From Pseudisothecium myosuroides (lineage: Eukaryota; Streptophyta; Bryopsida; Hypnales; Lembophyllaceae): a stretch of 64,000 nt of DNA. The notes below the pieces were generated by a model. The model was not told the DNA's origin and ran no database searches. It saw only the letters and a program-made list of their open reading frames with translations. The translations under genes were made by a program, and so were the position numbers. Numbering within the stretch: the stretch's first letter is position 1; every line of letters starts with the position of its first letter. The stretch is taken from positions 42,747,724 through 42,811,723 of the forward strand of contig OX637287.1 in the NCBI GenBank assembly GCA_951799445.1, in the 5' to 3' direction. Positions 19,161 through 41,885 of this stretch are shown here, in pieces.

Positions 19161-19569
19161 AGGTAGTGTGCTCTAAAAGCGAGTGGCCTCTTCAAATCGA
19201 CCCTATATTTAAGTATGAAATGGATATTAGGTGGTCCTTAAATGGACCTCTCAAGTCATTGAGAGAACCGAGAGAAAAGCATTATCTATTGTAAGAGCCA
19301 ATCATTGGCCTTCATTCACTCAAATCACTTTAAAAGTTGCAAGTGGTCAGATTTTGGAAGACATAGGGTCACAAATAGGTGCCTACAACAGTTTTTTCTG
19401 AAAATTCATAAGTAATTCAAAAATGATTCAAAAAATATGAAACCACTTGTGTTACGTTCCGCATCCATTTTTCTTTCTCTGAAAAATGATCCAAAAATAT
19501 CTCTGCTTACGGAAACCTGTGAAAAAGGCAGACCAGCCCTTAAATGGTCGCTTTTAGGCCATACTACCT
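19161..19569. mobile_element. 409-bp MITE with TA target duplication, AGGTAG termini
   Basis: Left end AGGTAGTGTGCTCTAAAAGCG, right end CGCTTTTAGGCCATACTACCT, flanked by TA on both sides. Copies B and C lack it (copy B reads CACATAAACTCAG through the site), giving a clear empty site. The TA duplication points to the Tc1/mariner (Stowaway-like) group. It is related by its termini to the element at 19677-19970. Confidence 0.75.
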
Positions 19570-19676
19570 TAAACTCAGAACCAGAGAGCCATGCTCTGGT
19601 GACTAGCATGCTGTACGAGTCCGGTTATGGCGCTTGCATGTTGAATTACCTCACTAGGTGAGCCTTGCTGCCAGTA

Positions 19677-19970
19677 AGGTAGGGGGCTATAAAAGCGACC
19701 TGTCTCCAAAAGCGATTTGGTACATTTTACTTCTAACATGTACCAGTAGTGTACATTTCAGGAGAGGGTCGCTTTTAGAAACCATTGTGTTTTCAACTTC
19801 AAAAATTCATAACTAATTTCATGAAGGTCCAAGAAATATGAAACGACTTGGGTTAAATGCCAATTCCAGTTTTCTTACTACGAAAATTTACTGAAAATTG
19901 TTTTAAGGAGTTTAGCTTCTCCCAAATATGCAATCAGCTCTTAAAGGGTCGCTTTTACAGCCCCCTACCT
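19677..19970. mobile_element. 294-bp MITE with TA target duplication, same family
   Basis: Left end AGGTAGGGGGCTATAAAAG and right end CTTTTACAGCCCCCTACCT are inverted, with TA on each side (19675-19676 and 19971-19972). Copies B and C have the empty site. Further AAAAGCGA phrases occur just inside the ends. No coding frame. Confidence 0.78.
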
Positions 19971-19974
19971 TACA

Positions 19975-20236
19975 AACTTGCATTCTTCTCTATCAGCTGC
20001 TCAGAATCTTGCCCCTCTGCGATTAACCCGAGTTTTGCAGCAAGGCGCGCATTTCTCAGTATCAATAGCTCAGTCTGTCACTTCCCTGCCTGCTCCACAA
20101 GTTTTCACAGCAAGGGCTTGCATTCTGTAACAGTAGCTTAGTGTCTGCGTGTTGCACGAGTTGTCGCAGCAAGGCGTGCATTCTTCGGTATTGTAGCTCA
20201 GTCCCTTGCCTCAGTATTCAGCAAGATTCGGGAGAG
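19975..20236. repeat. Degenerate leader repeats upstream of UGT copy A
   Basis: About three diverged units of 70-90 bp, each with a CACGAGTT or CACAAGTT phrase, then GCAGCAAGG, GCATTCT and AGCTCAGTC or AGCTTAGTG. The same block precedes UGT copies B (about 42222-42476) and C (about 62030-62365). It ends only a few bases before the ATG, so at least part of it is probably 5' UTR. Confidence 0.6.
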
Positions 20237-20240
20237 GGAG

Positions 20241-22274
20241 ATGGCTCCGAATGAGAAGGCGAGGACGACGACGAGGACGACTCGGGGGCACATTGTGATC
20301 GTCCCGCTTCCTTCACTAGGTCATGTCACTCCTGCCTTGCAGTTGGCGCGGCAGCTGTTGGCCCTGGGCTTCCGCATCACTTTCGTCAACACCGACCATA
20401 ACCACGAAAAATTGATGAAAACTCGGAGCTCTGCCAAAACTATGGCGATGGAGCCCCCTGAGTAAGCACTACGAACTCTTGAGTATTGCTAGCTTGAATT
20501 GGTTTCTCGAGCGAGCTTCGGTCCTGGTTGAGAGTTAACTAGGGTTTCGGGTTGCAAAATTGATACTCTCATGACGTCTTTTGTAGTTCCTGTGAATTCT
20601 GATGTTCATAAGCATGTTGTCAAATTTCATCAGGCTCCGCGTCGACGAAGTAGCGCGAATTAGCTAACTGCGTTGTTAGCACCAATTTGCTGACATTGCA
20701 GGAATTTAGTAACTAAGCTACTTTGCGCTACTTGGTTGGCGTGGGACTGGGCAGGGCCTAATCAGAGGTGATGAAGACTGAAAGAAAAGGTGTGACACCA
20801 ACTTTGGAGTAGACTCTGGTAGAGGTCTCGCGCTCTAAACATTCATGTACTGCTTGAATGATTTCTAAGGTGGTAACCCGAATTCACTAGAAGAATTCTA
20901 AACACTCATGTAATGCTTGCAAGGTCTGTAACCTAGTAACCCTAATTGTGCAGCGAAGGCATTGAGTTCGTCTCGATGTCCGACAATCTCCCCGACGATG
21001 TTTTCCTCGTGCGCAACTTCCAGGAGTTCAACCGGGCGACCTTGAGCATGGGCCCCATCTTGGAGGCGCTTCTCCTGACCTTGCACCCGCCCACCATCAC
21101 CTGCGTCATCCGCGACATTCGAATGTCGGCCGTGCACGCCGTTGCGAAAAAACTCGGCATTCCCGTGGTCGGTCTGGCCACCCCTTCCGCCATTTCCAAG
21201 CAATGCGTCTTCAACCTCCCAGTCCTTATATCCTCAAGGCTTCTCCCATTGCCACCTGCTCCAGACGATTGCACACCCTCCTTCAACGCAAGTAGTCTTA
21301 TGCTAAATCCCCCTCGAAGTCCAGCCGAAGCAACCGCTCGCCAAACCCCAGTGACGCCCCACATTTCTGGCGTCTCCCCAACTCTGCGAGTCCAAGACCT
21401 CCCAACTCACATCCTCGCCGACCTCGATGACTCCTTCCTCAAAATCCATCGCGACATACAAAGTCCGCTTCTCCCTGACTGTGAATGCATCCTCTTCAAC
21501 ACGTTCCACGACTTAGAGGGGGAGGTTCTCGACGTCATCGACTTAAACTCGCGTGTGTTCGCTGTAGGCCCTCTCATCTTGGCCGGGGCGGGAACTGGCA
21601 GTACACTCCGAAAAGAAGAACCTGGCGTCCTCTCTTGGCTGGACACCCAAACCCCTAACTCCGTCCTGTTCGTCTCGTTCGGGAGCGTGGCCACGGTCTC
21701 CATCACTCAGATGCAAGAGCTTGCTTCCGGTCTGGAACAAAGCAACGCTTCCTTCCTGTGGGTGATTCGAGCCGACACCATCGTCGACGAGGAGAAAGCA
21801 GAATTCGAAACGTGGTTTCCAAAGTTTGCGCTCAAAATCAGAAACCGTGGATTATTCGTTACCTGGGCGCCGCAAACAGCCGTTCTCTCCCATCCCGCGA
21901 CAGCTGCGTTTCTCACGCACTGCGGATGGAACTCCACCATCGAGAGCATCGCACTTGGAGTGCCGATGCTGGCGTGGCCGAGATTCGCAGACCAGACCAC
22001 GAATGCGCACTATATTGTGCACATTTGGAAAGTCGGGATGCAGCTGGAGGTGCGAGAAGCTGTTGTTGCGAAAGAAGAAATCGAGCGGAAGGTGAGGAAG
22101 ATGGTGGCGGAAGAGGGAGTGGATCCCGAGGTAGATGCCATAAGAGCGAATTCGAGGAAGCTCGAGGTGTCGGCGAGGAAGGCCGTTGCGAAAGGAGGCT
22201 CTTCGCATGCGGCGATGGCGAAGTTCGTGGAGCTTCTCGAGAGGTGGATGACGGCGTCCCCTTCCAATTCTTGA
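20241..22274 (+). CDS. UDP-glycosyltransferase, family 1 (copy A)
   Basis: Exon 1 is 20241-20461 (donor GTAAGC) and exon 2 is 20954-22274 (acceptor TTGTGCAG), giving 513 residues, a normal plant UGT length. The N-terminal sugar-acceptor lobe has PLPSLGHVTP with the expected catalytic His at residue 28. The C-terminal PSPG box begins at about residue 378 (WAPQTAVLSHPATAAFLTHC, then GWNSTIESIALGVPM) and ends in Asp-Gln. A final Gln is typical of UDP-glucose users. The likely role is cytosolic glycosylation of a small hydrophobic molecule; the acceptor cannot be read from sequence. It is the first of three tandem paralogues, and copy B is about 95% identical over exon 2. Confidence 0.93.
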
Positions 22275-23265
22275 AGCTTTCGGTGTTCATGACAATGGAT
22301 AACCAGGCAACGGTCCTCCCCATGCGGGGAACTACAATGGCATAAACATTTAAAGCTCCACGCAGTGAGTCTGAGTATTGAGAAAGAATCATGCAACTTT
22401 CTGAGCTTGGACCTGCACCCAATAGCTTGCTATTTGTTCTTTACGCTTGGCTATGTTCTTGCCGATGAGATCAAGAGGTAAACCTACGTAAATTCATCAT
22501 CACACTGTAGGGATGGAAAATTTTGTTAAAATGGCGTCCATTCATTTCCTTCTTTCAACGGGAATTTGTTGAATTGGCATATTCCCCCAACTTGGCACTT
22601 TTACGTTCAAACCGTGCGTTTTGAAATCTATACCAGTCCTAAACTTTCGGAAGGGACTTCTAAGAGTTTTAATTACCATCATCGGAAAGAAACAGAGTTT
22701 ACCACTTAGGAGGTGCTAATGGTAGTGAGTTTACTATGTAGTAAACTCATAAAACTCCCTTGTTTAGAGCTTTGTGCTGATGAATCACAATTTTTGATGC
22801 CCTGAATCATGCCAATTCAATTTAACAAAATTCTCCATTTGCACCCTTCCCCTTGAATACTGCCATTTCAAAAAAAATTGGTTAGGGTTAAGTGCTTGAT
22901 TATATTGTAATAAGGTATATACTATATAGCATGAGACTCAATGATTCCCATGATTCTTGAAGTAACTACTGTAGGTTACACGGTAGGATAAAAGCACTTC
23001 ATTGGATGCTTCGAGTTCCTCCGTAAGGGATAAATTGTCGGTAAGAAGCTCTCAACTGGTCACCCAACGATGAAATTTTCTAGCCAACTCAATATACCGG
23101 TATATATATATAACCATGATGAAAATCTGATGGGCTTAACTCGATCAAAGCGAAGGTACGTTGCTCACAGTCTTGATTACCTGATTGCATGTGGAGTCCC
23201 AGGGGTTCTCGTCGGGCTGTGCGGGCTAGCTATCTTGTAGATCGAGTTCGATCTACTAGCTGGCT
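22275..23265. other. Spacer between UGT copy A and the large element
   Basis: Similarity to the DNA 3' of UGT copy B fades at about 22325, marking the duplication edge. A short perfect hairpin (GAGTTTACTATGTAGTAAACTC) is at about 22727-22748 and a TA microsatellite at about 23098-23112. No gene. Confidence 0.45.
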
Positions 23266-23573
23266 GTACAGTGACTCCAAAAACTGAGTCTATACTTCAT
23301 TCAATTTTACTCCGTACACCATATGTTGAAAAGAAGTGGACAAAATCCAAGTGAGCAAACATGAATGTTGTAGTGTTCATTGTGTACTACAATCCTAAAA
23401 AAATTTGAAGCAAAAAGCAATTACGGTTTGGAAGTAAATGAATTCCAAAGCTAACCACCCCATAGACTCAGTTTTTGCGGCAGGGTTCATAATCACTCTA
23501 AAAATTGCCTATGCATCTTTCTTGAGCTTCAATGGCTTGGAACCCATATTTAACTAATTCTGGACAAATCCAC
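23266..23573 (+). repeat. Left terminal inverted repeat of the large element (308 bp)
   Basis: Reverse-complements to 37764-38036 plus 36735-36762. The single difference in the outer 270 bp is GCGG versus GTGG after the CAGTTTTT phrase, a CpG-type transition. Within the repeat, CAAAAACTGAGTCTAT (from 23278) recurs inverted at about 23463-23478, so each terminus has its own internal inverted pair. Confidence 0.85.
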
Positions 23574-24013
23574 AGTCCAGAAATCACTCGGCCGGCAGCC
23601 GAAACAGCCGAATCCCGAATTCTGACTTCCAATGTCATTGAACGTAACTGAACGCAGTAGACTTGAAGAAAACACGCCTAGCAAATGGAGTGACATGACC
23701 ATAGCAAATGCATGGTTCCAAAATTCCCTCAATGAAATAGTGTGACCAAAACATTATAATTGTAGAGAATCATTTCCGGGTGGAGGGAATATTCGCTAGC
23801 CAATCCAGTATTTTTGTTCGTGCCAATTGAATGAAAGAAATCAGCTAAGTAGCCTGTACAATAAGTATCAGCTGTCAGCCGATAACTGAACTGAACTCCA
23901 TTAGCCCCTCGTTCGGAATTCCTATAATCCTGAAACGCGACGAGGTCAATGCATGTTGAATTGAAGCAAGAGTAGATAACGACAGTGAATCATGTGAAGT
24001 GAGCATTGCTATT

Positions 24014-24105
24014 GTGGTATCGGCTGACGGCCGACATCCTTCGAAATGCGATTCCGATCCATTTCTACCCATTCGAAAGATGTCGGCCGTCAGCCGATAC
24101 CACAG
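24014..24105. repeat. Hairpin made of two inverted palindrome sites
   Basis: The palindromes at 24018 and 24081 are exact reverse complements of each other, and the match extends outward (TGTGG/CCACA) and inward (GACATC/GATGTC and TTCGAA on both sides). The result is a stem of more than 25 bp around a loop of about 25 bp. It lies in the left subterminal region of the element. Confidence 0.7.
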
Positions 24106-24479
24106 ATGTTCTGTACCAGAACATCTCCATCCCCGTAGGTAATTTCCGCATACCTCCCCCCACCAAACAACTGCTACCATTTCTATGACATGTATGAGAA
24201 TCCCGTGCGTCAACCATGGCCTTCCTACCTGCATTGACCCTTTTGAAGCCCCCTGCGTGTCCCACTTGAAATCCCATTGCGACAATGAGTATTTTATACC
24301 CGTCAGATCCCACATGAGACCAGTAACGAGACGCCCTAATAATAGTTGACAGGATTGAAGAGCACACAAGGCATGCACATCTGATGTCGGCCGGCAGCCG
24401 ACATGTTTGCGTGAACCGAAAATCAATCTGAACCCCAAGCAGCACTCCTTGACTCCAGACGTATGATATGAATAAAAAG

Positions 24480-25500
24480 TTGACATGTCCGTCCGTCTGA
24501 CGCTATCGACGCGTACGAAAGCATCCTCCGCGAGTCCTCGTTTCGTACCGAATCCTGTAAGCAAGTTCCTTTGGCTGTTTGAGGCGCAGGCGGTGTACTT
24601 CCACCGAACAATCTGTGCTATACACAGTGACCGGATTCCACCTGATTTCGAAAATATCCCGCGTAGTACATCCGTCTGCGGAACCCTTTCATTATGTATA
24701 GCACAAATTGCTGCGTGGAGATTCATCACCTGTGCCTGCATCCTCCCCGGGAACTCGCTCACAGTATCCGTGCCCGAACGATTCAACTTTAGAAGGAAGC
24801 ATTCGAACGGTCCGAGCGCGCCTGACATCCATGTCTTGAATCCGGATGTGCGTCCTGAATTCCCTTTATTACAGTTGATTCTACATCAAAATGATGGTTA
24901 CAAATGTCTCTGATAGAGAAAAGGTGTCCATCTATATATCCCTCCTAAATGCCTACATGTGCATCTATGTCGGCTGGCAGCCGACACCGTGCGCGCGTAG
25001 ACGTTCCGTGCTCCACTGCCTCCTCCGAGTCTCCGTTGATTGCACAACCCTGTAAGCACGTTCGTCCAATGTTTGGACGTAAGCGTTGTACCTCCACTGC
25101 ACAACCTCTGTTACACGTAGTGACGTGATCCCGCGTAGGTTCGAGACCTGTCTGCGAGAGCGCTTCATTACGTGTAGCAGAGGCTGCGCAGTGGCGATTC
25201 AGCGCCTGCGCCTGCAACATCCAGAGGAACTTGCTTATAGTGTCCGTGCCCGAATTCTCCATGTCAGTTGCCCGCCTATATACATAAATGGACTACAGTG
25301 TCGGCTGGCAGCCGACATATAGCGCGCCTGTATCCCGTTCATGAATCCGGATACGTGTCCTGTAATTTCTTAATTACAGGTGATTATTAATCCAAATAAT
25401 GATTACAAATGCTATACAAAAGAAATAAGTGTCCACCAACATCCAGAGCCTATATACAACAATCTACATCTATGTCGGCTGGCCGCCGATACATTTCGCG
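24480..25500. repeat. Two diverged subterminal units of about 500 bp, each quasi-palindromic
   Basis: Unit 1 (about 24480-24990) and unit 2 (about 24990-25500) share order: a GC-rich block with CCTGTAAGCA, then a central imperfect inverted repeat (in unit 1, TGTGCTATACACAGTG against TATGTATAGCACA; in unit 2, CACTGCACAACCTCTGTTACACGTAG against its near-complement). An AGTnTCCGTGCCCGAA phrase, TTACAG, GATTACAAATG-like DNA and finally a palindrome follow. Because of this symmetry both strands carry open frames with look-alike peptides, so these are not genes. Confidence 0.65.
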
Positions 25501-25528
25501 CCTCCTTGTGTGTCAGTACCAGTCGTCC

Positions 25529-28500
25529 TCAGCTGGTGCCTCCCAAGACGAGAGTTCCCACCTCTGTGTTCGGCCCCTCAAATCCCTTCTGGCACTCCGG
25601 TGTCACCTGGACGTAGAGCTTGTGTAAGGGTGACCCCGGCATGCACCGCGGCAGCCCAATGCGAGCGTTTGCCCGACAGAATTCCGGGACCGATAGTCCC
25701 GAGGCCAGGAAGTTCTCGATGAACGGAATCATCGTGGACTGGAGAAAGGGTAATTTCGGTGGATTAGCATTTTTCTTGGGTTTCTCCGAATATAGGGTAC
25801 AAGCGGGTGGATGAACCGCATTGAATGGATCATTGAGTACGTTTCTGTATGGCACGTGATCCACGATCAATGAGTTTGTAAGGGAGGCTCCATTCTGCCT
25901 AAGATCCGGCACGGACGATATGATCCGTGCGAGACGTTTTAGGTAGATGGGTTTCCCAGGAGTGGCTGGATCCCTATACGCACTCTCGTCACACATTTGC
26001 TGTCCGAAGGCAATGTAATTTTCCGGGATCTCCGGCACCGCCCACCTCATATTATGCATCCGCGCATTGAGTTGAGCCAAGGGCAAATACGATCAGTAGA
26101 CAATGACAATGTCCTGCCTCATACAAAACTGCAAGAATTCCCTAATTCCTGGCCTCTCTCTAACGGTTGACCTCTGCTGCATAGTGGCCGCCTTGAGAAT
26201 GAGCGGCTCATAATACATCAGTGTTCCCTGGACCTCTAGGAACAAGAACAACTTGTGAGACGCCACCGCTGGCGTGTCCACGACCTTTGCCTTTTCTCTC
26301 GTATCGAGATCCGGCTGGTTACATTCGTCCCCGCCTTCGGACACTTTGTCCTCAGAGGGCTCAGAATGATGAGTGTGATAATCTGCAATGCAAGATGAAA
26401 TCCACATACCATGAGATGCACTTCCAGAGCAACATGAGAGTAGCATTAGAATGTATCGGCTGGCAGCCGACATACTACCCACATCCTAGTCTGCATCGAT
26501 AGAGGCTACGATAGACGAGTTAGGAGCAACAAGTCCGTGCCATGCAGAACTAACATTACAAGACCTAGTGTAGTGATACCCCCCCTTGGCCCCAGCATGT
26601 CTATCGCCTACGAACCTCTAACTCGCGTCCGCTTAGATGCTGGACTGGGCGACATCTGTTCGTTCGGGAAGTCCATCTCCTGCCCGACATTTGATTCGGC
26701 TCCCCCTTCTGCGTCTCCAGTATCCCTTACCCGTTTTTCCTTGGAGGGTCCCGAGAGCCGCGAGTCCACTGCCTTTGAAGTTTTTCCACCTCCAGTTGCT
26801 TTGCTCCTTCCGCGTCGCGGCTCACCCTGTGAGTTGGTTCCCTGTATCGGCTGGCCGCCGATAGCGACATCCTGCGCTGTGGCAGGCCTCCCCATCGCGA
26901 TGAGCATTTCCCCGGATTGCGGTGTTCGGTCCGCCGCGAGAACGTCCACAGGTGCTGTTCCGCCCCTGACAATTTCCTCGGATTGGGGGATGGCATGCAA
27001 ATCCACCACCATTGCGTCCGCTGCGGTTGATGGTCCGCCATGAGGATCTGTTGCCAACCTGTTAGCTGCAGTTGGAGTCCGAGGGGATGAGGTTCCATAA
27101 TGAACCACGGAATCCGGTGTCCCCATCATTCTCCTTTGCGGCAGTTGCGTCTCCGGCTGTCGTTCCGTCGACGGCGTCCGATTTGCCCTTGAAGTTGAGG
27201 GACGTCCTTCCGGTGGATTGGGTCCCACAATTTCGACGTCTGACTCTCCACCTTCCTTGGTGTCGCGTATCATGAGCGGCCGTGTGGGGGGTACCACATA
27301 TGCGGCAGAGACCAGGTTCATTCCCTTGACTCGCTCGTTCGCTTTTGCCAGTCCTTCCTCCTCTAGAACGAACTCCAGCACAGAGCGGCCATTCCTCTAC
27401 GTGAACAATGACTTGGAGTTAGTAACTTGATGTATCGGCTGGCAGCCAACAGAGTGAGAGTCAAAGAAAATGGAGTTCCAGAAATCTTACCAGAGCGAAA
27501 TCTGTAACGTTTCCACCTCCCCAGACGTTGATGACGATAGCGTCCTTGGACTTGAGCGTCGGCTTCATCAAGCGTTCTAGGAGTCCATGTCCCACTCCAC
27601 ACATTCCTCCGTTCCAGTCGACCTCCCCGTCCACATCCACTTGATACCAGTCGAGCTGCTTGTTGATCCCGGTGATCCTCTTAAAGACTCCAAATAGCTC
27701 CGCTCCGTCATCTGGCTTGGGGAAGGTGAGAGAGAGTGTGACGAGTGGCTTGGGCTCGATCTCTTCTCTCCTGAAGCCTCCCCGCGGAGATGGCTGGTAA
27801 TACACCGTATGAAAGTACCACGATGACGCTGACGATAACGACGCCAATGCAACCGAATCTCGGAAGCGTGATCCCCCAATGAAGAGCATGGGGAGGGGAA
27901 TATATCCATCGCGTGCTGGGTTGTTCGGGCCTTCCTCCTCCCCGGGAATTTCAACGTATCTGGCGATGGCCTGGAAATCGCTCTTATTAATCCCCAACGG
28001 AATCCCATCGTTTGCATACCCGAAGAGCACAAAGAACTTCTTGTCCGTAGGTTGCAGCCCGTCTGTCTCCGCGCTTTCCCAAAGCGAATCCAGGACGTCG
28101 TCGATGTTCTGTCCCAGGCGACATTCATACTTGAGGTTTGAACTACTCCCTGCGACGGTCTCCTGTGGAACCGCAACCGTGGAGTACTTCGTCAATGTCG
28201 TGTAGAATACCCCCGGCGCCTTTCCGTCCGTGGACTTATCCGTGGTCGGGTTCATGGGGTTGACGCGTTCGTTCAGCCATGTGTTCCCCTCCGTGACCTT
28301 CTTGACATCCTTCCAGACGTTTCTGACGACACCCGGAGAGTACCCCTCCTTGTCCGCGAGTTTCTGCCATGCCTCGTCTGAGTAGGGCACCCAGGTCGCA
28401 TCCTTACAGGGGAGGGGAAACTTCTCGCGGAGCCACATGATCTCGTTCATGACCACCCTGTCCAGCTTTTTGTCCTTGCACCAGTCGTACAGGGTGATCA

Positions 28501-30447
28501 CTCCCGAGCCCCTTGCCTTGGCTGTGTTCTTGATGCTGACGCGAAGGGCCACAATCTCGTCCGCCAGTTCGCAGAGGTCTGAATCACGCAGCCCCAGAGT
28601 CGGCGTGAGATCCGTCTTTGTGATGTGCGTGAGCGGCTTCCGATTGACGAGTTGTATCGGAAGAGTCCCGTCATCTCCAATGAGCTCTCCATTCTCCCAC
28701 GCGTCGAACACCTCCGTCCACAGTTCCCAGGTGTTCTCCTTGATGAAGATGAGGGGCAGCTTCGATGACACTTTCTCCTCCACGAAGTGCGCCATCACCT
28801 TCAGCTTCGCTGCCTGCGGAAGTGCAAGTCCTCAACATTCAGAACCTCGGGCTAATCTATCGGCTGGCAGCCGAGAGACACAGACGACTCACAACTCACA
28901 ACATGAAATTGTAAGAGAATCTGTATCGGCTGGCAGCCGACTCAGAAGCAGGTCTTGAACTAGTGCACACATCACGTATACGATGATCAGAATGAACGCT
29001 GAGCGGAAGTGCCTACCTCAAACGCAGTTGACGGTTTTCCACCCCCGCGATGTGGCTCCGGACATCCTGCCTTCACCCATGCCGGTCTCCCCATTTCAGC
29101 ACAAGATCGGAACGTCTCCTTGGCCACCTTCTCCGCGATGTTCAAGTTCAAGGCGTTTGAAACCCTGACGAGAGTGTCCGCGTCTTCCGCCCAAACCGGA
29201 ATGACTTCAAATTCCAGAAGATCCTTCTTTGCATCCGAGCCATCGGGGAAGTTCTTGGCGAGTTCGAGGCATGCTGTAACGGTATGCTGACCACCAATGA
29301 TGTACCAATGCACATCAGGAGCTTTCCACCAGGGCACTGGAACACCGTTCACCGTTGTGGTGTCTCCCACACGGGGACACTTGTCCATGACAGCATCCAT
29401 TCCTTTGTCGGTTTCCAAGGGCTTCCGCTTCAATGGAATTCCATGGATTTCCGGCTTCTTTCGAATGGACCCGTATCCCTTATACATCGTTGTCACCTAC
29501 AATGACGATTTCCTGGACAATTAGAAACCCTACATCAAAGTGTCGGCTGGCAGCCGATAGAATAAAAAGTAGAGTATTATATATAAGGCAGTTCAAATGA
29601 AGAGATCTTGAGCTACAATACCTGTTTCAGGCGGTCCTTCGCGATCTTCCTGTACTTGAGATCATCTGGTGCAATGTGGAGTCTGTTAGCTTGGATGACC
29701 CCCGGAAGACGTTGCTTCTTGTAGGGGAAGGCATGCCCCAGCCCCTTGTCCAACGCCTCGTAGATGGCGTTCACCTCGCTGTCCTTTGTCTTCGTGGTGA
29801 GGTGATTCCCACGACGTAGGGCCTCGTCCAGTGTGATCTTGAAGGCCTTCTTGGGATCTTTCCCCTTCCTCTTGGGTTTGCTCGGTGACCCCGCCTCCAC
29901 GACAGCAGTTTCCGCCTCCACAGTCGGTGTGCTGGACGGCTTCTTTCTTGCGGAGGGCACCTTCTTCTTTCCTTTCTCCAGGTCCCGAATGGCAAGCGCA
30001 TTACGGTCATCCCTTTCTGCTTTGAGAATATACCATCCCTGCACCAGGTCCTCAGCATCCACGGGATGGTTCTTCTCGAATGTCATGCCCATCGCCATCG
30101 CCATATTTCCACAGACCTCCTCCGTGCATTTGTCGAAGGGCAACTCCACCGCGATGTAGTCCGCTTCCCCTTCCGGATTCGCAAGTGGGACCAGACAGAT
30201 GAGGACATGAACAGCGTCACCCACCGCCATAACGGACATGACCTTCCCCTTGCCCGGGACCATGTTTCCCTTCATCTTGTACGAGCACGCAATCTCGACT
30301 ATCCCGTCAGTCAACTCCCTCCAGCAAAGGCCCCACTCCTCAATTGCTGGACTTGCTTTCCAAGTTGCGCGTGGTGGAATCCCGTCGGAACATATCCCGG
30401 AATTCGGAATCTGTTCACCGAGGAGTCTTAAGAGCAGGGTAGGTTTC
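25529..30447 (-). CDS. Multi-domain element gene: ParB-like, methyltransferase-like and FCP1-like HAD regions, five or more exons
   Basis: Minus-strand exons by splice signals: 30447-29622, 29496-29017, 28813-27491, 27396-26616, 26382-25529, all joining in frame, with donors GTATTG, GTAGGC, GTAAGA and weak GTTCGT. The 5' exon is missing: 30447 follows a TTCTGTGTGCAG acceptor. Exon 1 has no recognised fold but a basic patch (KPKRKGKDPKKA). Exon 2 carries WYIIGGQHTVTA, like the GGxHR motif of ParB/sulfiredoxin domains. Exons 3-4 join as VINVWGGGNVTDFALRNGRS with a following LEFVLEEEG, resembling motif I of DNA methyltransferases (moderate to low confidence). Exon 4 then becomes a low-complexity linker. 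Exon 5 has FLEVQGTLM, RERPGIREFLQF, CDESAYRDP and LIVDHVPYRNVLNDPFNA, an FCP1/NIF-type HAD phosphatase pattern. It has an in-frame TGA at 26095-26093, and the first catalytic Asp is replaced. The product may stop at the TGA. Confidence 0.65.
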
Positions 30448-30633
30448 CTGCACACAGAAGACATGAGTTCAGCGTGCTACGTAATAGTGTCGGCTGGCAG
30501 CCGATACGGTAAGGGGGTACAATGTATCGGCTGCCAGCCGATACAAGTTCCGGTAATTCATGACAACAAAATGAACTATATTGACTGCCTGCCGATAATG
30601 TATTCAGACTACAAAAAGTGGAGGTGCTGATGC

Positions 30634-30883
30634 TGTCGGCTGGCAGCCGACACAGAATTCATGCAATGAACGAACGTATACAAACATGAAAAACATGGAA
30701 GGGGAAACTGTATCGGCTGCCAGCCGACACAGAATTCGTGCAATGAACAAGCGTATACAAACATGGAAAACATGGAAGGGGAAACTGTATCGGCTGCCAG
30801 CCGACACATAATTCGTGCAATGAACAAGCGTATACAAACATGGAAAACATGGAAGGGGAAACTGTATCGGCTGCCAGCCGATA
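30634..30883. repeat. 77-bp tandem repeats, each carrying a palindrome, in the divergent intergenic region
   Basis: Palindromes at 30634, 30711, 30788 and 30865 are spaced exactly 77 bp. The spacer is nearly constant (AATTC.TGCAATGAACnA, CGTATACAAACATG, AAAACATGGAAGGGGAAACTG). The array lies between the leftward gene, whose known exons start at 30447, and the rightward gene (ATG 31670), so it is placed to act on both promoters or as an origin-like iteron block. The open frames it creates on both strands are by-products. Confidence 0.85.
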
Positions 30884-31669
30884 CAGGGATTGAATGGTAC
30901 TTGTCACTGACTGCATCGGCAGTTGCCATCTTCTGGATCAGGGAAGTCGTGTCGGCTGCTCTGCGTCTCCTGTCGGCTGGTGAGGTCGTCTGCTCACTAC
31001 TGCCTCCAATTGTATCGGCTGCCCTGGATCTGATATCGGCTGACCTAATCAGCGGAGCGGCTGACCTAATCTGCGGAGCGGCTGACCTAAAAAATGCGGC
31101 GGCGGGGGAGCGGATACTATATGACCCGAGGAGTGTCGGCTGCAAGCCGTGGGACCAGAAAACAGGGAGACTGTGGGAGAGACAATGAGAGAGAGCGAGA
31201 GCATGAGTGAGAGAGCGCGAGAGAGAGAGAGAGACTGATCCTGAGCGTGGAGAGTTAGAAATGAGCTGAAATGAAAGTGATCAGGGGAGTATACCCCCCT
31301 CCCTACTGAAGTGACGGCTGCCAGCCGGGAGGCGCAATCATTACGATTTCATCCACTTTTTTCATCCGTCCATGGTTTCTCATCCAGTCTGAGACGCGTC
31401 ATCGTCATTTGCAGCGCTCATATTGTCCGCTATAGTGGTCCTCAGCTGTTTCGATTTAGGTCCTTCTCATATCCATGCAGTCCAAGGTGACGGCTGCCAG
31501 CCGACACAATCTCAAGGTCAGTCTCATGTTCAGAAAATAGGTGATCCTCATCAATGAGGTCGTCTACTGTGATGGATATTGTTGTATCGGCTGCCAGCCG
31601 ACAAGGGGAAGCGCGATTGAACTGAACAGGAGATTCGACATCGCTGGTTTTAATTTCAGATTGTGTACC
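30884..31669. promoter_or_regulatory. Divergent intergenic region with palindrome half-sites and GA microsatellite
   Basis: At 30947-31150 half-sites cluster: TGTCGGCTG, TATCGGCTG and GCGGCTGACCTAATC occur seven or more times without their second arm, and one degenerate full site reads GTGTCGGCTGCAAGCCGTGG. A GA-rich microsatellite follows (about 31185-31234). Full palindromes lie at 31312, 31498 and 31585. A TTTTAATTTCAG acceptor at 31659, eleven bases before the ATG, suggests a leader intron. Both promoters should lie in this interval; no TATA box is obvious. Confidence 0.5.
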
Positions 31670-34600
31670 ATGACATCATCTGATGAGCCGGGGCTGGATA
31701 CCACTGTAATTGAAGCATTCACAAGAAATGGAGGCTCTGGGAGGTTGAAGATTCGGAAGGGAGCAGTCGTCGCGCTGACACTGGAAGGACTATATTACGC
31801 AGGTAGGGCGGTCGTAGAGAAGGTGGTGCAGCAGGATCCATGCCTCGTTTGCGTTCGGGTGATAGATGTTCCATCGAACCTCGACATGCCCATTCCGTTT
31901 CCGGAGGCAGACTTGCACTTCCTCCGGCAATGCGCAGGAAGGTCGATTGTATGGGAGGCAAAAAATATTTATCCTTATGCGGAGTCGGAAGGGTCATCTT
32001 CCGTTGGTGTCGGCTGCCAGCCGACACATGGAAACACGGACGGGAAACCCATACAGCAATTCCTGTCACTCTCTGTCAATATGGAGGTTGTACTTCTGAT
32101 GATGGTCGGTAATGACCTGCAGTATGCTGGTGTGGGATCCATTGTAGAATGCTCACCGAAGGGATATTGGAATGGCTTCCGCGTACCACACAGCTTCTTC
32201 GTCGTCGTCAAGCTTCTGCATGTCCTCGAGGAGTTCGAGGATCAAAATGCCTACTGCGAGATTCCAGAGTTCATGACACTGAACCGCTGTGTGGGATTTA
32301 GAATTCTATGGAGTGGATACAAGGTGAGGCCGGTCGTGGCACCTAGTTCATCGACCGTGAATGTCGGCTGCCAGCCGACAGATATTACAGGAGACTATCT
32401 CATCCACTCACAGCTAGATAGGAGCCCGGAGAGTGGAGGTAGCTCAAACAATGTAGTCGTGGAATTCGGGGACTCGATCGATGAACAGATTCCTGCCACT
32501 GCATCGGATGAAGACGATCGAGAGGATAGGCTCTACTCATCGGACGGGCAATGCTGCGGATCTGCTCATGGAATTCACAATGTTCATGGTTATAGTACCT
32601 CTGTAGATGGCAGCTATCCGAGCAGCGGCAATGACTGCTCTGTTCAGGCAGTCGACTTTAGGGGTCATGGAGGTAGTGGAGAATCCAACGCGAACTCGGA
32701 CGGCGTGCAGTCGGGGCTACCCATCATGGACAGACCTCTTTGGAGGAATAAATACTGCCAACTTCTCAATGACGATTTCTCAGTCTTCGGAAGAGCAATG
32801 ATACAAGTCTGCCTACCGGAGGAAGCCTGCGACGATCGCGTTCTCAGAGATTCAGAGGTAGGGGTCATGTTGGTCTCGGAAAATGAGGAACTGCAAATGA
32901 CATCCATGCGGTGGAAGATAACACACGCTAGATTAGAGGGGGGAAGGCTACTCTCGGAGATGGTCACGCTCTGCTCAGAGGTTGCTCTGCTGGAGGAGCC
33001 GGATGACAACGGATGTCAGGGGGTGCCCAGAAATCCCTACCGGTCGGTGCGCAGGAAAGTCACTCACAAGGATCGCGGTGGAAAATCCAAATTGCAGCTC
33101 AAGATCTCGGAGTTGGAGATACGTGCGGTCAGCTCGCAAAAGTGCTGCAATCTCAGATGCTGCCAGACGTTTCCTTGGGAGGAAACAAAAAATATACAAA
33201 GGAAGTTCTTCGCAGCCACATTCGAGACAAGGAGGGAAATGGCATATACGGTGCACACTCAAATACATCCGGGGATCGTTCCAGGTAAAAAAGTCATTAC
33301 TCTTGCAAATAGAGACGTATGCGAAAACGCTTGGTGTATCATTCACGGGGTCTCAAGGTCGGCATACCATGTTTACAAGGCGGCGGCCGCAGGAGGATCG
33401 GTCAGCGGATCGCATGGGAATGCGAGGTCCACAAGACCACGTCCGAAAACAATTCAAGCCCAAGCAACTCTCATGACAATCATCAATGAGAATGCAGATC
33501 AGATGCCAAACGAATTCAGGCTAGTTGGGAATAAGCGCGTAGACAGTCTCAAGGTCGTGCCCTCGGCAATGACGTGGGATCACATGCGCGAACAAGTAAA
33601 CTCAGTAAGTTCATCATCTTCTTCTATTTAGACATTACATACTACTGTTTGTCGGCTGCCAGCCGATACCATGTACTTATGGAATGGAAGCACGTTGGCA
33701 GGCGCTTTAGGCATACTTCTCTGCTTTCCTCAGTCAGGGTTCTGCATCTCTGTCGGCTGCCGGCCGATACAAATGCTCAACCTTATTGCGCAACCTCATT
33801 TGCCAAATGATGTCCTTCAGGTCAATAGGGTATGCAATTTGGAGCCAGTCTCGCAGTCCGCGATCAGCCGCCTTCGGAAGACACATTTCAAAAATGTAGA
33901 GGTCAAGGCGGTGGGAAGCAATTTCTCAAAATGCACAGAATGTGACTTCCTCGTAGAGTGTATTGCAAAGTATCCCAGGGGCTGTGATGAGTGGCAGGCG
34001 CTAGTCGACGACAGAGAGAGACATCTCAACTACCAAAGGGCATGTAGAAATGTCTATGGAGGATGGACCGCGCAGTCAGTCAGAAATCCATCAGAGTTCC
34101 TGTGCATCATTCATGATAAAATGGACACCAAGAAGACAGCGATTCCAAGGATGATGCGCGTCACAAAGGCCACCGCGGGGCTAGGGCAATTGCCAATATC
34201 TTGCACGGGCATGCTCACACATGGCCATGGAGATGGCGCATATGCGCATTATTCAACCTCGCTCTGGCCGGGGGACTCAAATTTCACAATTTCGTCGCTC
34301 TGTAGGGTACTTAGGGCGCTAGAAGCACCACCTGTGCGGGAGTCGAAGGTGCTCTTCAAATCACCACCGCAGAATAGCTTCTTTGAGGCTCTGATGCATG
34401 GAAAATCCAGGTGCAACTCATCCATTCCGCAGGCACAGGAGAAGGTTAATAACATTCAAACATCAGGGCGGCCTCATATTCCACTGCCGAGGAAGCTCTT
34501 CTTGCAACTGGACAACTCAGCAAAGGACAACAAAAATAGGTTCCTCATGGCTTTCTGCTCATTACTCACCGCGAGGCGCATATTTAAGGAAGTTACAGTC

Positions 34601-35836
34601 GGATTTCTAATTGTCGGGCATACGCACGAAGACATTGACGCGCACTTCAGTTATCTATCGAAACTCATCAAAAAGAAGAACACGTATGTACTAGCAGATC
34701 TCATGAAGGCGTTCATGGACTCGCAGAAGACGGTGGCATTCGTCCCGGAGGTCGTGCAAGAGGTCGCAGACTTCAAGGAATACCTCAGAGGATTCCATCA
34801 TGAGGGCGTAAACAAGATCATCGGACTCGGAGATAAACACATATTCAAATTCTATGTAGTCGAAGATGGAGATGATCGGGGATGGCCGGTCATGAGGTAC
34901 AAGAAAAGGGCAACGGATTCGTCGTGGCTGCCTCCGGGGCCTCCAGTCAAAATGTGGACAGCGGACGAAAATGGGAGACCAAAAATACCGCAGGGGGATC
35001 CTAGACCAGTGCCCTACAAGGCACTCTGGGGGAACGTGGAGTTTATTACAGAAAGGCGGAATGCAGAGAAAGAAGTCGCAAGGGCGAGCGAATGCAGGGA
35101 GAAACAAACATTCATCAAAAATGGAATCGCAAAGTACATTGAATTCTGGAAATTGGGAATGGCCAGAAACAAGCGATATGCACAGGAAATGGCGGGGTGT
35201 GTGGCTTACTGGGAAAAAATTTACAAGGAAATCAATTCAGTCATGCCACAAAATCAAGCAGAGCTTCGAGAAGGATTGTGGCCGCTCTCAGACTGGACAA
35301 GAGATCATGGAGACGCTTTTACGGGGGAGGGGACAGAAGCATATCATTCACTGGACACCACTCCGGAGGACGAACCAGAGAATACTCTATACTGCGGACC
35401 AGCCAAAGACAGACCCAGACTGACATTCAATCCATTCAGGGATGTTTTGCTAGGAGACTTTGTGCTCTGTAGACCATGTCAAAACAATTACCTGCCGGTT
35501 TGGTTGGGACGGGTACTGGAATGTGTCAACAGGACTCCAGGGACATCGTATGGGAACTTCACAATAGAGTGGTGGACTCCAATGAAGACGAAGAGGGAAG
35601 GAAAGGCGCTGGTGGCAAGGGAATGCTGGACAAGGAGATGGCACAAGGAACTCACTCTTCCACAGATAGTACATGTCAGCATGGTCTTGTACTCGCACAG
35701 AATGCCCTCGCATGCAAAGAATGGACCTCCCAACTCTCATGTCATCCCGGAGGCATCCGTGGCTGCTGCACTTGCAAATCTAGAGGCCGCGGGAGCAACA
35801 TTGGACACAGATGCAGACGAACAAAGACATGATTAG
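31670..35836 (+). CDS. DUF7869-type transposase, probably DDE/RNase-H fold, three exons
   Basis: Exons 31670-32323, 32414-33604 and 33821-35836 (donors GTGAGG and GTAAGT; acceptors CCACTCACAG and TCCTTCAG), all phase 0, 1286 residues. The ATG at 31670 (ACCATGACA) is the likely start. Two tandem repeats near the N-terminus (VALTLEGLYYAGRAVV; VLLMMVGNDLQYAGVG) resemble the DUF8039-like modules of plant transposase proteins. A Ser/Asp-rich linker and a Cys cluster (KCCNLRCCQTFPW) follow, then a second Cys set (FSKCTECDFLVEC). The catalytic-looking part holds LCIIHDKMDTKKT, LFLQLDNSAKDNKNRFLMAF and VGHTHEDIDAHFSYL, the DUF7869 hallmarks. Three acidic clusters spaced this way fit a DDE nuclease, though that is inference. 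No stop codon or frameshift interrupts it, so the element may be autonomous. Confidence 0.82.
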
Positions 35837-36734
35837 CGCTGCTACGGATTCGGATCTGTCGGCTGCCAGCCGATAGTCGGAATTCGGATTACGGAGGATT
35901 TACAAGGACATTCCGCTCAGGGATTCTCGTACGCGGATGCAGGTGTCGGCTGCCAGCCGATACAACACTCTTTGCTGCTGCCGAAGCGCACTGTTCTATC
36001 CACAAGATGATTTCAATCAATGGTAAAGCCAGGAACGTCCACATTTTGTATTCTCGTTTGGGGTCAGGAAGGGAGTAACTATATGTCTGAAGTTAGTTCA
36101 GGCTGGGCGTTTAATGGTTACCATATGTATCGGCTGTCGGCCGACACATGGAATGTAGGTCTGTACAGCAATCTCTAAAACGTTTCTGGTACTCCTGCTT
36201 GGTGGATGACACATCATTTCGTAATGGAATGGCGACGAACTTGTGGAATTCTATTATCAGTTTATATGAAGTTCAGCTAAGGACAGTTTTACAAATAATG
36301 CTCTTTAGTGCGCTACTCAACCGGATTGCTCAGCTCTCACTCATGTTCTCCGCTCTGTTTTATTCTCGCTAGGCACATTAGTCTACTCATTTGTTGGCTG
36401 CCGGCCGATACATTTCACCAGGCTGAGACTACATGTTGTTTGAGGCTGACATGGATTCGGATTATGGGAATTGTACTGGGAGTTTTCTTCATTTCAGGGG
36501 CGCGGTTATAGGCATACCTTCTGACCACACACGAAAACCACTGCAAATAAGCAACTCCACTACTTCCTTCTCCATTTGGAAAACAAAGTTTCCTTCATGG
36601 CAACATTTTATGACTTATCAAATGTACATTTTCACAATGTGTGGGAGGGCAGCCGATACTTTTCCATCATTTCAAGCATGTTTTTCTACTCTGCAGTGGA
36701 GGCTAAGTGAAAAAATTGTCCATAATTCGCGCAT

Positions 36735-38036
36735 TTGTCCATAATTAGTTAAATATGGGTTTTGGATATTTTATTGCATGTTGTTGTACACCATTTAAGA
36801 CCCACTCCCATTGATATTGTAAAAATTTGACATATGTGTGCTTCAAAAAAATTATAAATAGAAAAAAATGTAGGTAGTACTAATTTGAATGGAATTTGAA
36901 GATTTTTAATGAATCAAAGACTTGAGATGTCATTTACTTTCATAGATGATCTATAGGTTGCAATTTGAACCGTTGTTGCATCTATTTTGATTAGATTTGA
37001 AAATATTTGTCTTAATATACGATAAATACAAATCATTTTAATTTTAATTTAGCAACAAAAATAGCTATTTTAACCGTAATCTTTTTGAATCCAACATATT
37101 AGTTTATAAGGGTTGTATTTAGTCCATTTGTTTGGATTGTAGGTGATTCAATATGATATGACAACAACAAAAGTAAAACCAGAATATTGACAATATGCCT
37201 TATTTTTATTTTTATCAATTGCAATTGTCAATATTTTGTCATATATATTTTTGTTATTCTATAACATACAAGATATATAAATTTAATGCATTAATACATT
37301 ATTGTATTTTAATTAAAGGATTTTATTGCAAATAACTCAATATTCTGGTTTTACTTTTGTTGTTGTCATATCATATTGAATCACCTACAATCCAAACAAA
37401 TGGACTAAATACAACCCTTATAAACTAATATGTTGGATTCAAAAAGATTACGGTTAAAATAGCTATTTTTGTTGCTAAATTAAAATTAAAATGATTTGTA
37501 TTTATCGTATATTAAGACAAATATTTTCAAATCTAATCAAAATAGATGCAACAACGGTTCAAATTGCAACCTATAGATCATCTATGAAAGTAAATGACAT
37601 CTCAAGTCTTTGATTCATTAAAAATCTTCAAATTCCATTCAAATTAGTACTACCTACATTTTTTTCTATTTATAATTTTTTTGAAGCACACATATGTCAA
37701 ATTTTTACAATATCAATGGGAGTGGGTCTTAAATGGTGTACAACAACATGCAATAAAATATCCAAGCCATTGAAGCTCAAGAAAGATGCATAGGCAATTT
37801 TTAGAGTGATTATGAACCCTGCCACAAAAACTGAGTCTATGGGGTGGTTAGCTTTGGAATTCATTTACTTCCAAACCGTAATTGCTTTTTGCTTCAAATT
37901 TTTTTAGGATTGTAGTACACAATGAACACTACAACATTCATGTTTGCTCACTTGGATTTTGTCCACTTCTTTTCAACATATGGTGTACGGAGTAAAATTG
38001 AATGAAGTATAGACTCAGTTTTTGGAGTCACTGTAC
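36735..38036 (-). repeat. Right terminal inverted repeat of the large element (split)
   Basis: The inner fragment 36735-36762 and outer fragment 37764-38036 together match the left repeat in inverse orientation; the foldback element separates them. The outer end reads GGAGTCACTGTAC. Confidence 0.85.
36763..37763. mobile_element. 1-kb foldback element inside the right inverted repeat
   Basis: Arms of about 424 bp (36763 to about 37187 and about 37340-37763) are near-perfect reverse complements, beginning GGATATTTTATTGCATGTTG and ending with its complement, around a 150-bp AT-rich centre. The left inverted repeat of the host element (about 23540-23565) shows the uninterrupted sequence, so this is a later insertion. 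No coding frame. The junction differs from the empty site by a few bases (GGGTTTT..AAGCC against GGGTTCCAAGCC), so the target duplication is unclear. Confidence 0.85.
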
Positions 38037-38332: not shown

Positions 38333-39814
38333 GATAATGTCCGGTAACGTCCGGTAACGTGAATGTATGGAAATAACATCGCTTGCCACTCCGCCACTCG
38401 TTATTTCTCATATCGAGGCTCTACTTTCACGTTTCCTTCATGTTTCCTAGTCCATTGACGATTCCTACAACTTTTCCACTATTGGCCTGCCTTGCTCCAA
38501 TGTTCTTACATCTTCTGGCCGATGTTTAGGTGGATGGACTTCCTGGACTCGACTGTCAGCATCCAGCGCTCTAGTGGGAGACTTTTATGCTCGAGAGAAT
38601 GGACGTGGGTTTTCGCAGCGTAGGGGTTGCTTCCACCATTCGGACTCACCGACAGTACTGATTTGGTTAGCCAAAAGGTGGGCTTACATCTACCATCCTG
38701 TATTGCTCATGCTCATGAGGTAGTGTATCTAAGTATCTCCTCTCTGCAGTACGAGCAATATGAGCAAGTTCTCTTGAATATATGATTGGCTTTAGAGAAG
38801 CAAATTTGGATTTGGGCTTCACCCGTGAAGAGGGTGTCAATATAGAAAAAGTTACACAATTATACCTGACCAGCATTTGTCTTGGATCCTTGGTCCTGGA
38901 ATGTGAATATTTTTTATTGAGTATACTGTAAGTATTTCTTATTTCTGTGCAGTGCGTTTATGCTTCGCTTTCTAGAAGAAATCACTTCCAAAATTCTTGA
39001 ATTTCAACAATAAAGTTGATGGGGTTATGGATATAACTTCTGTGCTTTTACTAGAAATTTAATGTGGCGGGGCAGCATTGCCAGTGAAATGGTTGATTTG
39101 GTATACTCATATAGTGGCGTTTGTTAGGCACGAATTGTTTCGGGGTTTCTCTTTCGGAGAGGCCGTGGTCCCTTTGTTGAGCACACGGGATTTTCAATCA
39201 AACCTTGGTTTCCTATACGACAGTTGTTTTTAGCCTCAGTATTTCAGTGATCCTATGAAGAGAGGAACTCCAACCAGTAAGTGGTTGGCGTAAATGATTC
39301 ACCTAAGTTCCCACTACATATCCTATGATTAACTATTGTTGCCTTATAAGTGGGTTTTAGACCTTCAAGTGGGCTTTGAAAGAGGATGTTCAATTCAATG
39401 CATTCCATTACGCAAGTGGGAAAGACGGGGAACAAGTTCATTGTTGAATCTTGTATTGTACTCCGTACAATGATTGAGTATTGCTCACAATGTGCTTCAA
39501 CTTGTGGACATATGTCACTAAAATAAAATTTCATTGACAGCCATAATTGTGTGCCTATGAGATTTCTTAATTTTAAGTCACATAGCCAAACTAAGCTAAA
39601 CTTAGGTGAAATCCAAGAGTAACAAATTGTATCAAAAGGTACAAATCTTGAAGTTCAATTGATAAATTTTTCAAATCCATTCTTTAGTTTAATATTTTTT
39701 TAATGAGTATCTATTTTTTCTTTGGAATTATTAGGACACATTAAGTTTAATTTCATCCTACCTTCTATAATTGGTTTGCAACTTGGTGTAAAGAGCACCT
39801 ACTACAGATGGTAG

Positions 39815-40036
39815 CACTATAAGAGAAAGGGGTGTTTTAAGTGAGTTTTTAAGTATAGTTCTAGACACATGATTTTAAGTAATGACTTTTAAGTAGATTT
39901 TCAGCAAAATTTTACTTAAAACACATGTGTTTTAAGTAAAATTTTGCTGAAAATCTCCTTAAAGGTCATTACTTAAAATCATGTATTTAGGACTATACTT
40001 AAAAACTCACTTAAAACACCCCTTTCTCTTGTAGTG
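39815..40036. mobile_element. 222-bp CACTA-type MITE with TAG target duplication
   Basis: Termini CACTATAAGAGAAAGGGG and CCCCTTTCTCTTGTAGTG are inverted and start with CACTA. The flanks are TAG on both sides (39812-39814 and 40037-40039). Almost the whole element folds back on itself around a TTTTAAGTAAAATTTTGCTG pair. Copy A has the single TAG at the empty site (about 17628). CACTA ends with a 3-bp duplication are diagnostic of the CACTA/EnSpm superfamily. No coding frame. Confidence 0.85.
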
Positions 40037-40502
40037 TAGCCTTCAATTGATAATTTTTTCAAGTTCAAGCCCTAATTTCAATATTTAGGGTTGAATACTC
40101 TAGAACAATGGGTGTCAAGGTTGGAGAATTACAAAGCCTTGTTTTGTCCTAGTTGTAGTTTTCAATTTATAATGTTTTCAAATTCATATTCTAATATTAA
40201 TGCCCTGATTTCAATGTTTAGTGTTGAATATTCTATAATAGTGGATGTTAGGGTTGGAGGATTACAAAGCCTACTTTTGTCCTAGGCTCTAACTTCCAAG
40301 TTTAATCAAAATTGAAGACAAAATTGGTTCTTTTAATCCCCAAACCTAAATGCCTATTAAAATGTAATTGTTGAAAAATCTAGATTTTTGTAGGGCAAAT
40401 TTTTGGTTGAACACTCATCCTACCATCCATAATCACTCCGCAATTTGGTGTAACATGCACTTATTACAAGCCATAGCATACCACATAGAATACCCAATCT
40501 TC

Positions 40503-40842
40503 CATTAGAGAAAATGTGGGCCCTCCGGAGGGCTGCTCCACAGCCCTCTGAGGGCCCCTGAAATTTACTTTTTTTTTCCAAAAAAATTAGTTTTTCCCCT
40601 ATTTCCGTGCAGTAGTTTCTGCTGCGACAGTGGTGCAGGAAACGAAAACTACGAGTAATTTTTTTTATTTTTATTTTTTATTTTTTATTTTTTATTAATC
40701 TTAAAAAATAAAAATAAAAATAAAAAATCGCGAAAGCTGACTACTCACCGCAGCAATCAGCTTGGTGTGACAGACCAAGCTTTTAATAGCTTGGTTTGTC
40801 ACATTCTAGCAGCCCTCTAAAGGGTTCAGTTTTTCTCTAATG
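40503..40842. mobile_element. 340-bp insertion with CATTAGAGAAAA inverted termini
   Basis: CATTAGAGAAAA at the left is mirrored by TTTTTCTCTAATG at the right. Copy A lacks this block (about 17942). The interior has a GGGCCCTCCGGAGGGC hairpin region, an A/T-only run around 40655-40725 and an AGCTTGGTnTGnCA inverted pair around 40760-40800. The target duplication is not clear, so the class is unassigned. Confidence 0.6.
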
Positions 40843-41680
40843 CATCAACATCACACAACTTGGAGTAACATACATCTACTACAATATATATCATAAATCA
40901 TGCAATATCCAATCTTCCATCATCAATTCACAACTACTTGTAACATGCACCAACTACAAGCTATAGCATAAAGCATATAACATCCAATCTCCCACCCTCG
41001 TTAAACAAATTGGTGTAAAAGCATGCAACCATTGAAGTAGAGGTATTCACTTTTGTCTACTTGCTTTTGACTTTGAAAACTCACAAAAAATACAAAAAAT
41101 CTCCAAAAATTTTATTTTTTTTGAAAATTTACAATTTCCACTTGTCTACATGTAATAAATACCCCTAATTGTAATTTTCAAACTATCTATGCAGATCAAT
41201 TTGAGTGAACGGTTTTAGATCTTTCTACCTACAAACGGTATACTATAGTTAGATTTTATAGCAACTTGTTGAAATTTGTTGCAAATCATCAAACACTACA
41301 TTCTAGCTACCAAAATAACAAAAAGATTATACAAGAAATAGTAGCCCAAACCAAGTATTTTGAACCACCTTAGAGAAAATGAAAAATGAAAAATAAAAAG
41401 TTGGCATAGAGGTAAGTGTACCTATAGTCAATACTAATAGCGATTAAACATACTTACTATTATAAAACACAGATTATTGTTATTGGATCTCATTGACAAG
41501 TGAAAAAGGACATAAACATACTTCAACCTTGCAACGTTTAGGCAATCAAAAAAGTGACACAAAAATGACTTTTTGAGAAACTCTAAAAACAAAGATAGCA
41601 CCTATTATACTTTTTCATTCAAAAATCTGATAGTTGTTGGCTGACTACCTTGGTCATAGGCCTCATCTTTCCACAGTTAA

Positions 41681-41885
41681 CCCTTGAACGCTGCTATGGA
41701 CATTTTGTGTCTGATGGACAGGGAATCAAAAGTGCAACTATTCATCCTCAAAATTTGTTGTAGAAAGGGAAGATCTTCCATAGTAGTTTGACTTGCAATG
41801 AGTACTTTTGCAATTTTGGAGGCTAATGATTCACACGGTAATAGGAAAGGATGATTTCGAGGGTCACCCCTTCGGCGTTTAAGGG
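41681..41885. mobile_element. 205-bp TTAA-flanked MITE (piggyBac-like)
   Basis: Termini CCCTTGAACGC and GCGTTTAAGGG are inverted (10 of 11 match), with TTAA on each side (41677-41680 and 41886-41889). Copy C shows the empty site with a single TTAA in matching context (CCACGG, TTAA, CATGCATTGTTT at 61696-61699). This shows precise TTAA duplication on insertion. Confidence 0.85.

Follow-up and report, generated by a model that had tools for sequence, protein, structure and literature searches.

A palindrome-studded DUF7869 DNA transposon with divergent genes in the moss Pseudisothecium myosuroides

How does a giant transposon recognise its own DNA within a plant nucleus? The question is raised, and made testable, by a field of palindromes in a 64,000-nucleotide stretch of the Pseudisothecium myosuroides genome (assembly GCA_951799445.1, OX637287.1:42,747,724–42,811,723, forward strand; hereafter the window, to which all coordinates refer). 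A reading made from the sequence alone had placed here a DUF7869 DNA transposon, nearly intact, that carries divergent genes and a field of palindromes, and that general description holds. We consider it probable that this is a giant DNA transposon whose palindromes are putative binding sites of a protein encoded by the element, most likely the product of its second gene.

The element and the repeat that holds it

The element, its flanks and the repeat into which it is inserted are laid out as follows.

23541..36761, no strand: DUF7869 transposon proper, 13,221 bp, interrupting a 1,540-bp repeat, with TTGG on both sides and the same ends in 20 of 20 other copies
23537..23540, no strand: left target-site duplication TTGG, from the junction compared with foldback copies
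36762..36765, no strand: right target-site duplication TTGG, from the same comparison
23541..23569, plus strand: left terminal inverted repeat AACCCATATTTAACTAATTCTGGACAAAT, 28 of 29 positions identical to the right end
36733..36761, minus strand: right terminal inverted repeat, 29 bp, matching the left end at 28 of 29
23269..23540, plus strand: left part of the interrupted 1,540-bp foldback repeat, outside the DUF7869 element, with TA at 23267–23268
36766..38033, plus strand: remainder of that foldback repeat on the right, made up of 429-bp arms, spacer and 276-bp arm, with TA at 38034–38035

The sequence-only reading took as the ends of a 14.8-kb element a pair of inverted arms of about 300 bp with one difference in their outer part. 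Such arms are present (23266–23541 and 37761–38036, 275 of 276 positions identical, plus 28 of 29 further in), and a search with them of the window's own assembly (387.9 Mb, 222 contigs; all counts of genome matches are lower bounds) assigns them to an unrelated repeat. The 276-bp arm has at least 40 scored matches (of 352 candidates), which by eye form 18 pairs and 4 singles; the members of a pair lie about 1.54 kb apart in 17 pairs, and 14.8 kb apart in the window pair only. This foldback family thus has at least 18 paired matches, with 98–100% arm identity. The repeat consists of arms of about 700 bp and a spacer of about 146 bp, ending in CAGTG, and the six copies fetched (L016–L021) are 1,540-bp repeats with TA on both sides. 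In five of the six GGCTTGGATATTTTATTGC is uninterrupted on both arms and in L021 on one; the search word differs in the other arm of L021, yet the alignment crosses the interruption point. Being uninterrupted at the insertion point, the other foldback copies act as an empty site for the DUF7869 element, which is inserted into a copy of this repeat. Judged by its ends, the foldback repeat is a young non-autonomous family of Tc1/mariner type; it is the source of the 276-bp arms and the insertion site of the element, not the element itself. Each arm also contains an internal 16-bp inverted repeat, CAAAAACTGAGTCTAT. The 1,000 bp at 36762–37761 were considered as a nested insertion and rejected, since the arm matches in the genome identify them as the remainder of the foldback repeat.

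The real ends of the element therefore lie at 23541 and 36761, giving a size of 13,221 bp, and its genes and palindromes occur elsewhere in the genome without the long arms. An unrelated origin of the arms and the presence of genes and palindromes without them are the two findings that the sequence-only reading had named as its refutation. The termini are AACCCATATTTAACTAATT, and the window junctions read GGC-TTGG-AACCCATATT ... AATATGGGTT-TTGG-ATATTTT. Unless the genome is searched, the ends of an element can thus be confused with a repeat that flanks its insertion.

A search with the second exon of the DUF7869 gene (66 of 1,075 candidates scored) gave at least 67 genome matches, 30 of them full-length at 98–100% identity with the window copy included; the remainder are one copy in two pieces (100 and 97%), 25 matches at 69–84%, one small fragment and nine at 49%. 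As 25 of the 30 full-length matches contain no stop, the family has moved recently. The window copy, which had been proposed as a founder, is one of these 30 (plus the one in two pieces), and nothing marks it out as such. Both termini are present in all 20 other young copies whose ends were fetched (99% transposase identity; at most 2 mismatches over the outer 19 bases). These dispersed copies combine terminal inverted repeats with duplications of constant length: 17 of the 20 have perfect 4-bp duplications, all different, as does the window copy with its own, and one more matches at 3 of 4 positions. Two copies 22 kb apart, C6:17950830 (plus strand) and C6:17972879 (minus strand), have swapped duplications (ATGT/ATTT), the footprint expected of an inversion between them.

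The palindrome field

The palindromes are distributed over and around two divergently transcribed genes, modelled as follows.

23586..36658, no strand: field of 35 palindromes TRTCGGCTGSCAGCCGAYA, 32 of them outside the coding models
30488..31603, no strand: closely packed palindromes, together with four unpaired half-sites (30950, 30971, 31013, 31034), in the interval separating the divergent genes, from a site scan
31670..33604, plus strand: gene 1 exon 1, encoding the N-terminal 645 amino acids of the DUF7869 transposase, with two in-frame palindromes encoding VGCQPT (open reading frame and model)
33821..35836, plus strand: gene 1 exon 2, predicted DUF7869 RNase H-like domain and BAH/SH3-like C-terminus (PF25273, structure model)
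29622..30464, minus strand: gene 2 exon 1 (open reading frame, splice sites, open joined frame), with a relative in the 49% clade
29017..29496, minus strand: gene 2 exon 2, weakly supported ParB-like domain, WYIIGGQHTVTA (sequence and profile comparisons)
27491..28813, minus strand: gene 2 exon 3, helical region followed by a predicted amino-methyltransferase fold without DPPY (homologues, structure model)
26608..27396, minus strand: gene 2 exon 4, completing the methyltransferase-like domain and adding a low-complexity tail, with one in-frame palindrome, IGGQPI (open reading frame, splice sites)

Allowing up to four mismatches, TRTCGGCTGSCAGCCGAYA occurs 35 times in 23266–38036, always within the true element, and nowhere else in the window, while 10 order-1 Markov resamples gave a mean of 0.0; the sequence-only reading had estimated about 33 copies confined to the element. 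The exact 15-bp core is found in 18 copies, and the half-site TRTCGGCTG 50 times inside the element and never outside it in the window. Evidence for confinement of the palindrome comes from the window, 5 kb in each of 19 other young copies, the left ends of 20 copies, six foldback loci and the older stretches described below. The 5-kb stretch holds eight sites in the window copy and in 18 of the 19 others, and seven in the remaining one.

The palindromes could also be very small mobile or duplicating repeats that have entered the element without serving it: four sites form a 77-bp tandem array at 30634–30883, and 32 of the 35 avoid coding sequence (the coding models occupy 8,243 of 13,221 bp). 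This is nevertheless the least likely of the explanations that we weigh, as no site occurs elsewhere in the window or in the six foldback loci, and two in-frame copies lie at orthologous codons in other moss genera. The counterparts of the two in-frame exon 1 sites in Ceratodon and Physcomitrium read VGCPPT/VGGPPI and VGCPPT/IGGPPT, the second site being degenerate (VSSKPM) in one of two Ceratodon proteins. Among 132 homologous proteins (the best 120 of 163 DUF7869 matches and all 12 gene 2 matches), 15 palindrome-type peptides were found, compared to about 0.2 in shuffles; nine of these 15 come from a looser pattern chosen after the Ceratodon and Physcomitrium proteins had been viewed, and the exact peptide [VI]G[CW]QP[TI] has no match among the 132. 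In a metagenomic relative (P0001, 69% identical), an intron contains two palindrome-encoded hexapeptides at matching positions, although little else in that intron can be aligned.

An alternative in which the palindromes act as RNA hairpins, affecting splicing or silencing of both transcripts, would account for two further features. Oriented by the sense strand of the nearest gene, the central base is C in 28 of 35 copies, and coordinate comparison places at least one palindrome in each of the four modelled introns. We regard this as highly improbable, since the outer pair is A/C, unable to pair, in nine of 35 copies, four half-sites stand alone, many sites lie outside the transcript models, and no Rfam match reached gathering scores. 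Positions 2 and 18 moreover vary independently as R and Y, which argues for a fixed half-site read twice, as by a DNA-binding dimer, rather than a covarying stem. On the plus strand, the central base switches from mostly G to mostly C at 30488–30525, between the divergent genes.

Older relatives were examined as one copy each of the 81%, 75% and 49% clades, a small sample. The 81% copy keeps the motif in degenerate form, with nine sites in 6 kb. In the 75% copy the form has diverged, the right arm being TAGC in eight of 14 listed sites and both arms changed in about three of 14; the young consensus matches 13 sites there compared to 10 for the altered consensus, and a change of motif is thus suggestive at most. 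An unrelated palindrome, ATCGTGGGATCCCACGAT, occurs in the 49% copy of the same genome, with 30 sites in 16 kb (0–1 in resamples, none in the window). A third palindrome, of 27 bp, accompanies a DUF7869 gene of 33% identity in L001, with 11 sites compared to a mean of 0.2 for a consensus derived from the L001 contig itself, all outside a 963-amino-acid frame; L002 and L003, which contain fragments of 25% identity, have no palindrome field. These three contigs are filed under bacterial metagenome-assembled genomes, and are most likely eukaryotic contamination. Related elements thus carry three clearly different palindromes, two in this genome and one in L001, by which site and protein can be matched and swapped. 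Because the motif studs the whole element, and at least some relatives carry a different motif of their own, the data suggest that such elements tag their own DNA with an element-encoded protein.

Two divergent genes and the candidate binding protein

The complete-looking DUF7869 gene of the sequence-only reading is modelled as two exons encoding 1,316 amino acids without internal stop, and its product matches PF25273 (E 1.1e-42). In the structure model DUF7869 adopts the RNase H fold of a DDE recombinase and has a BAH-like tail, so that the catalytic domain general to DD(E/D) transposons is present in the model. Across 62 proteins the acidic residues D294 and D334 are invariant and D162 is conserved in at least 90%. 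One relative, P0028, has weak similarity to Transposase_23 (E 0.023, below cut-off). Relatives in viral contigs were also sought, and none was confirmed. For DUF7869 proteins, which are annotated as unknown, these results supply a fold model, the ends and target duplication of an element, and a partner gene.

That partner, gene 2, is the second large divergent gene noted earlier, and is open throughout: four modelled exons on the minus strand (30464–26608) encode 1,144 amino acids without internal stop. It accompanies all 31 young DUF7869 copies, and its exon 3 is open in 25 of the 31. The underlying genome search scored 93 of 292 candidates, and the linkage count used 62 of 94 gene 2 matches, leaving out fragments and ten matches at 26–34% (as judged by eye, no omitted match is less than 25 kb away from any DUF7869 copy that was scored as having no gene 2); the DUF7869 copy split into two pieces (100 and 97%) was taken as one and the fragment C1:52271058 was left out. 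A search with the full-length protein gave no match at E ≤ 0.001, while a single-exon query gave 12 homologues. An amino-methyltransferase fold was found in the structure model (pLDDT 60). The DPPY catalytic motif is absent from the four window exons and from 11 of the 12 homologues, some of them partial, and the twelfth has only SPPH in a linker. Because the catalytic motif is missing, the modelled fold suggests a reader rather than a writer. Sequence comparison gives weak support to a ParB-like domain as well. Searches for ParB by tblastn gave six records in phages, none annotated as ParB, and none in plasmids. In searches of the PDB, gene 2 exon 2 had one chance-level match and the exon 3 profile none.

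Either protein might bind the palindromes. Transposase sites in subterminal positions are familiar from other superfamilies, and the DUF7869 transposase could itself bind the palindromes much as CACTA (En/Spm) elements use such sites, leaving gene 2 with another role. The first palindrome starts 17 bp inward of the left terminal repeat, as would suit this arrangement, and in L001, where the search did not extend to gene 2, a DUF7869 gene stands next to a palindrome field. However, the sites extend over 13 kb instead of keeping to the ends, reach their highest density at the divergent promoter and occur in all four modelled introns, a better fit to a regulator or DNA marker, and we judge binding by the transposase to be rather unlikely. 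Gene 2 is the better candidate because the sites run along the entire element and are crowded at the divergent promoter. It is favoured also by analogy, as ParB-methyltransferase proteins have been proposed to bind and mark their own transposon (PMC12477816).

In the mechanism that we favour, with gene 2 as the putative binder, the 13.2-kb element would move by cut and paste, gene 1 encoding a DDE-type transposase that acts at the short terminal repeats and generates the 4-bp duplications. The divergently transcribed gene 2 would supply a ParB-like/pseudo-methyltransferase accessory protein, and the palindromes would be dimeric DNA-binding sites, with TRTCGGCTG as half-site, for an element-encoded protein. 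Coating the element and clustering at its divergent promoter, these sites may allow it to recognise its own DNA, and such self-recognition could serve transcriptional control, protection from silencing, or pairing of the ends. A more tentative extension, which we think possible and somewhat doubtful, is that each DUF7869 lineage has its own co-evolving pair of a ParB/pseudo-methyltransferase and a matching palindrome repeated over the full length of the element, acting as a centromere-type or identity mark that would coat no DNA but that of its lineage; this would amount to a self/non-self system of prokaryotic origin in a eukaryotic transposon, with more than one such system present together in one moss genome.

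The element also contains a third reading frame.

25526..26382, minus strand: gene 3, an NIF/FCP1-like (HAD) frame that contains an in-frame TGA near 26093–26095 (PF03031 E 0.034, below cut-off)

In this HAD frame, either cargo or a relic, the catalytic Asp motif is apparently replaced. Beyond gene 3 lies an internal duplication, 76% identical (24656–24778 and 25128–25254), and the frame at 23875–24885 has no Pfam match. Around the insertion, a UDP-glycosyltransferase gene unit is tandemly duplicated (16126–22325, 38337–44573 and 61588–64000; blocks about 79–96% identical), the transposon and foldback repeat sitting between the first and second units. This duplication was of no use as an empty site, as the duplicated blocks end short of the insertion.

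Comparison with known systems

The earlier description of the element as belonging to a poorly described superfamily stands in part. Target duplications of 4 bp are a defining feature of Sola, a superfamily reportedly described by Bao and colleagues in 2009 with 4-bp duplications and a DDD triad, and a 4-bp duplication is present in the moss element. Together with the conserved acidic residues and the opposite-strand ParB/methyltransferase-like gene, this makes it likely that the element belongs to Sola or a close relative, as judged by these features. CACTA (En/Spm) elements carry many copies of a short element-specific protein-binding motif, have CACTA-type termini and make 3-bp duplications. 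The moss element likewise has many short element-specific motifs, but these are palindromic and span the whole element, and its termini (AACCCATATTTA) and 4-bp duplication do not agree with CACTA membership. KDZ (Kyakuja-Dileera-Zisupton) elements make 8-bp target duplications, which does not agree with the 4 bp here, and no KDZ family, for which Pfam has a model, was among the Pfam matches of the window transposase (E ≤ 1) or of four relatives (E ≤ 10). Tc1/mariner membership was likewise rejected, as the TA flanks the foldback repeat rather than the DUF7869 element.

DUF7869 was not mentioned in the literature searched, and no description of palindrome fields was found in the titles and abstract openings of work on moss or other bryophyte transposons, palindromes, KDZ or ParB-methyltransferase transposons. 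ParB-methyltransferase fusions of phages, suggested to direct modification to specific sites of mobile DNA (PMC6536676, PMC5512222), join the same ParB-like and amino-methyltransferase domains that gene 2 appears to contain. They belong to prokaryotic mobile DNA, however, whereas moss gene 2 has a weak ParB identity and no catalytic motif.

The closest known system is Sola1-1_Ec32 of Ectocarpus, a 21.5-kb element with a 1,104-amino-acid ParB-like and amino-methyltransferase gene on the strand opposite the transposase (PMC12477816). The two are alike in giant size and in the opposite-strand ParB/methyltransferase-like gene, of 1,144 amino acids as modelled here. They differ in that DPPY is missing from moss gene 2, and in that the available part of the same source mentions no internal palindromes for the Ectocarpus element. 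A ParB-methyltransferase transposon gene is thus already published for other organisms, and the new part of the moss element is its palindrome field.

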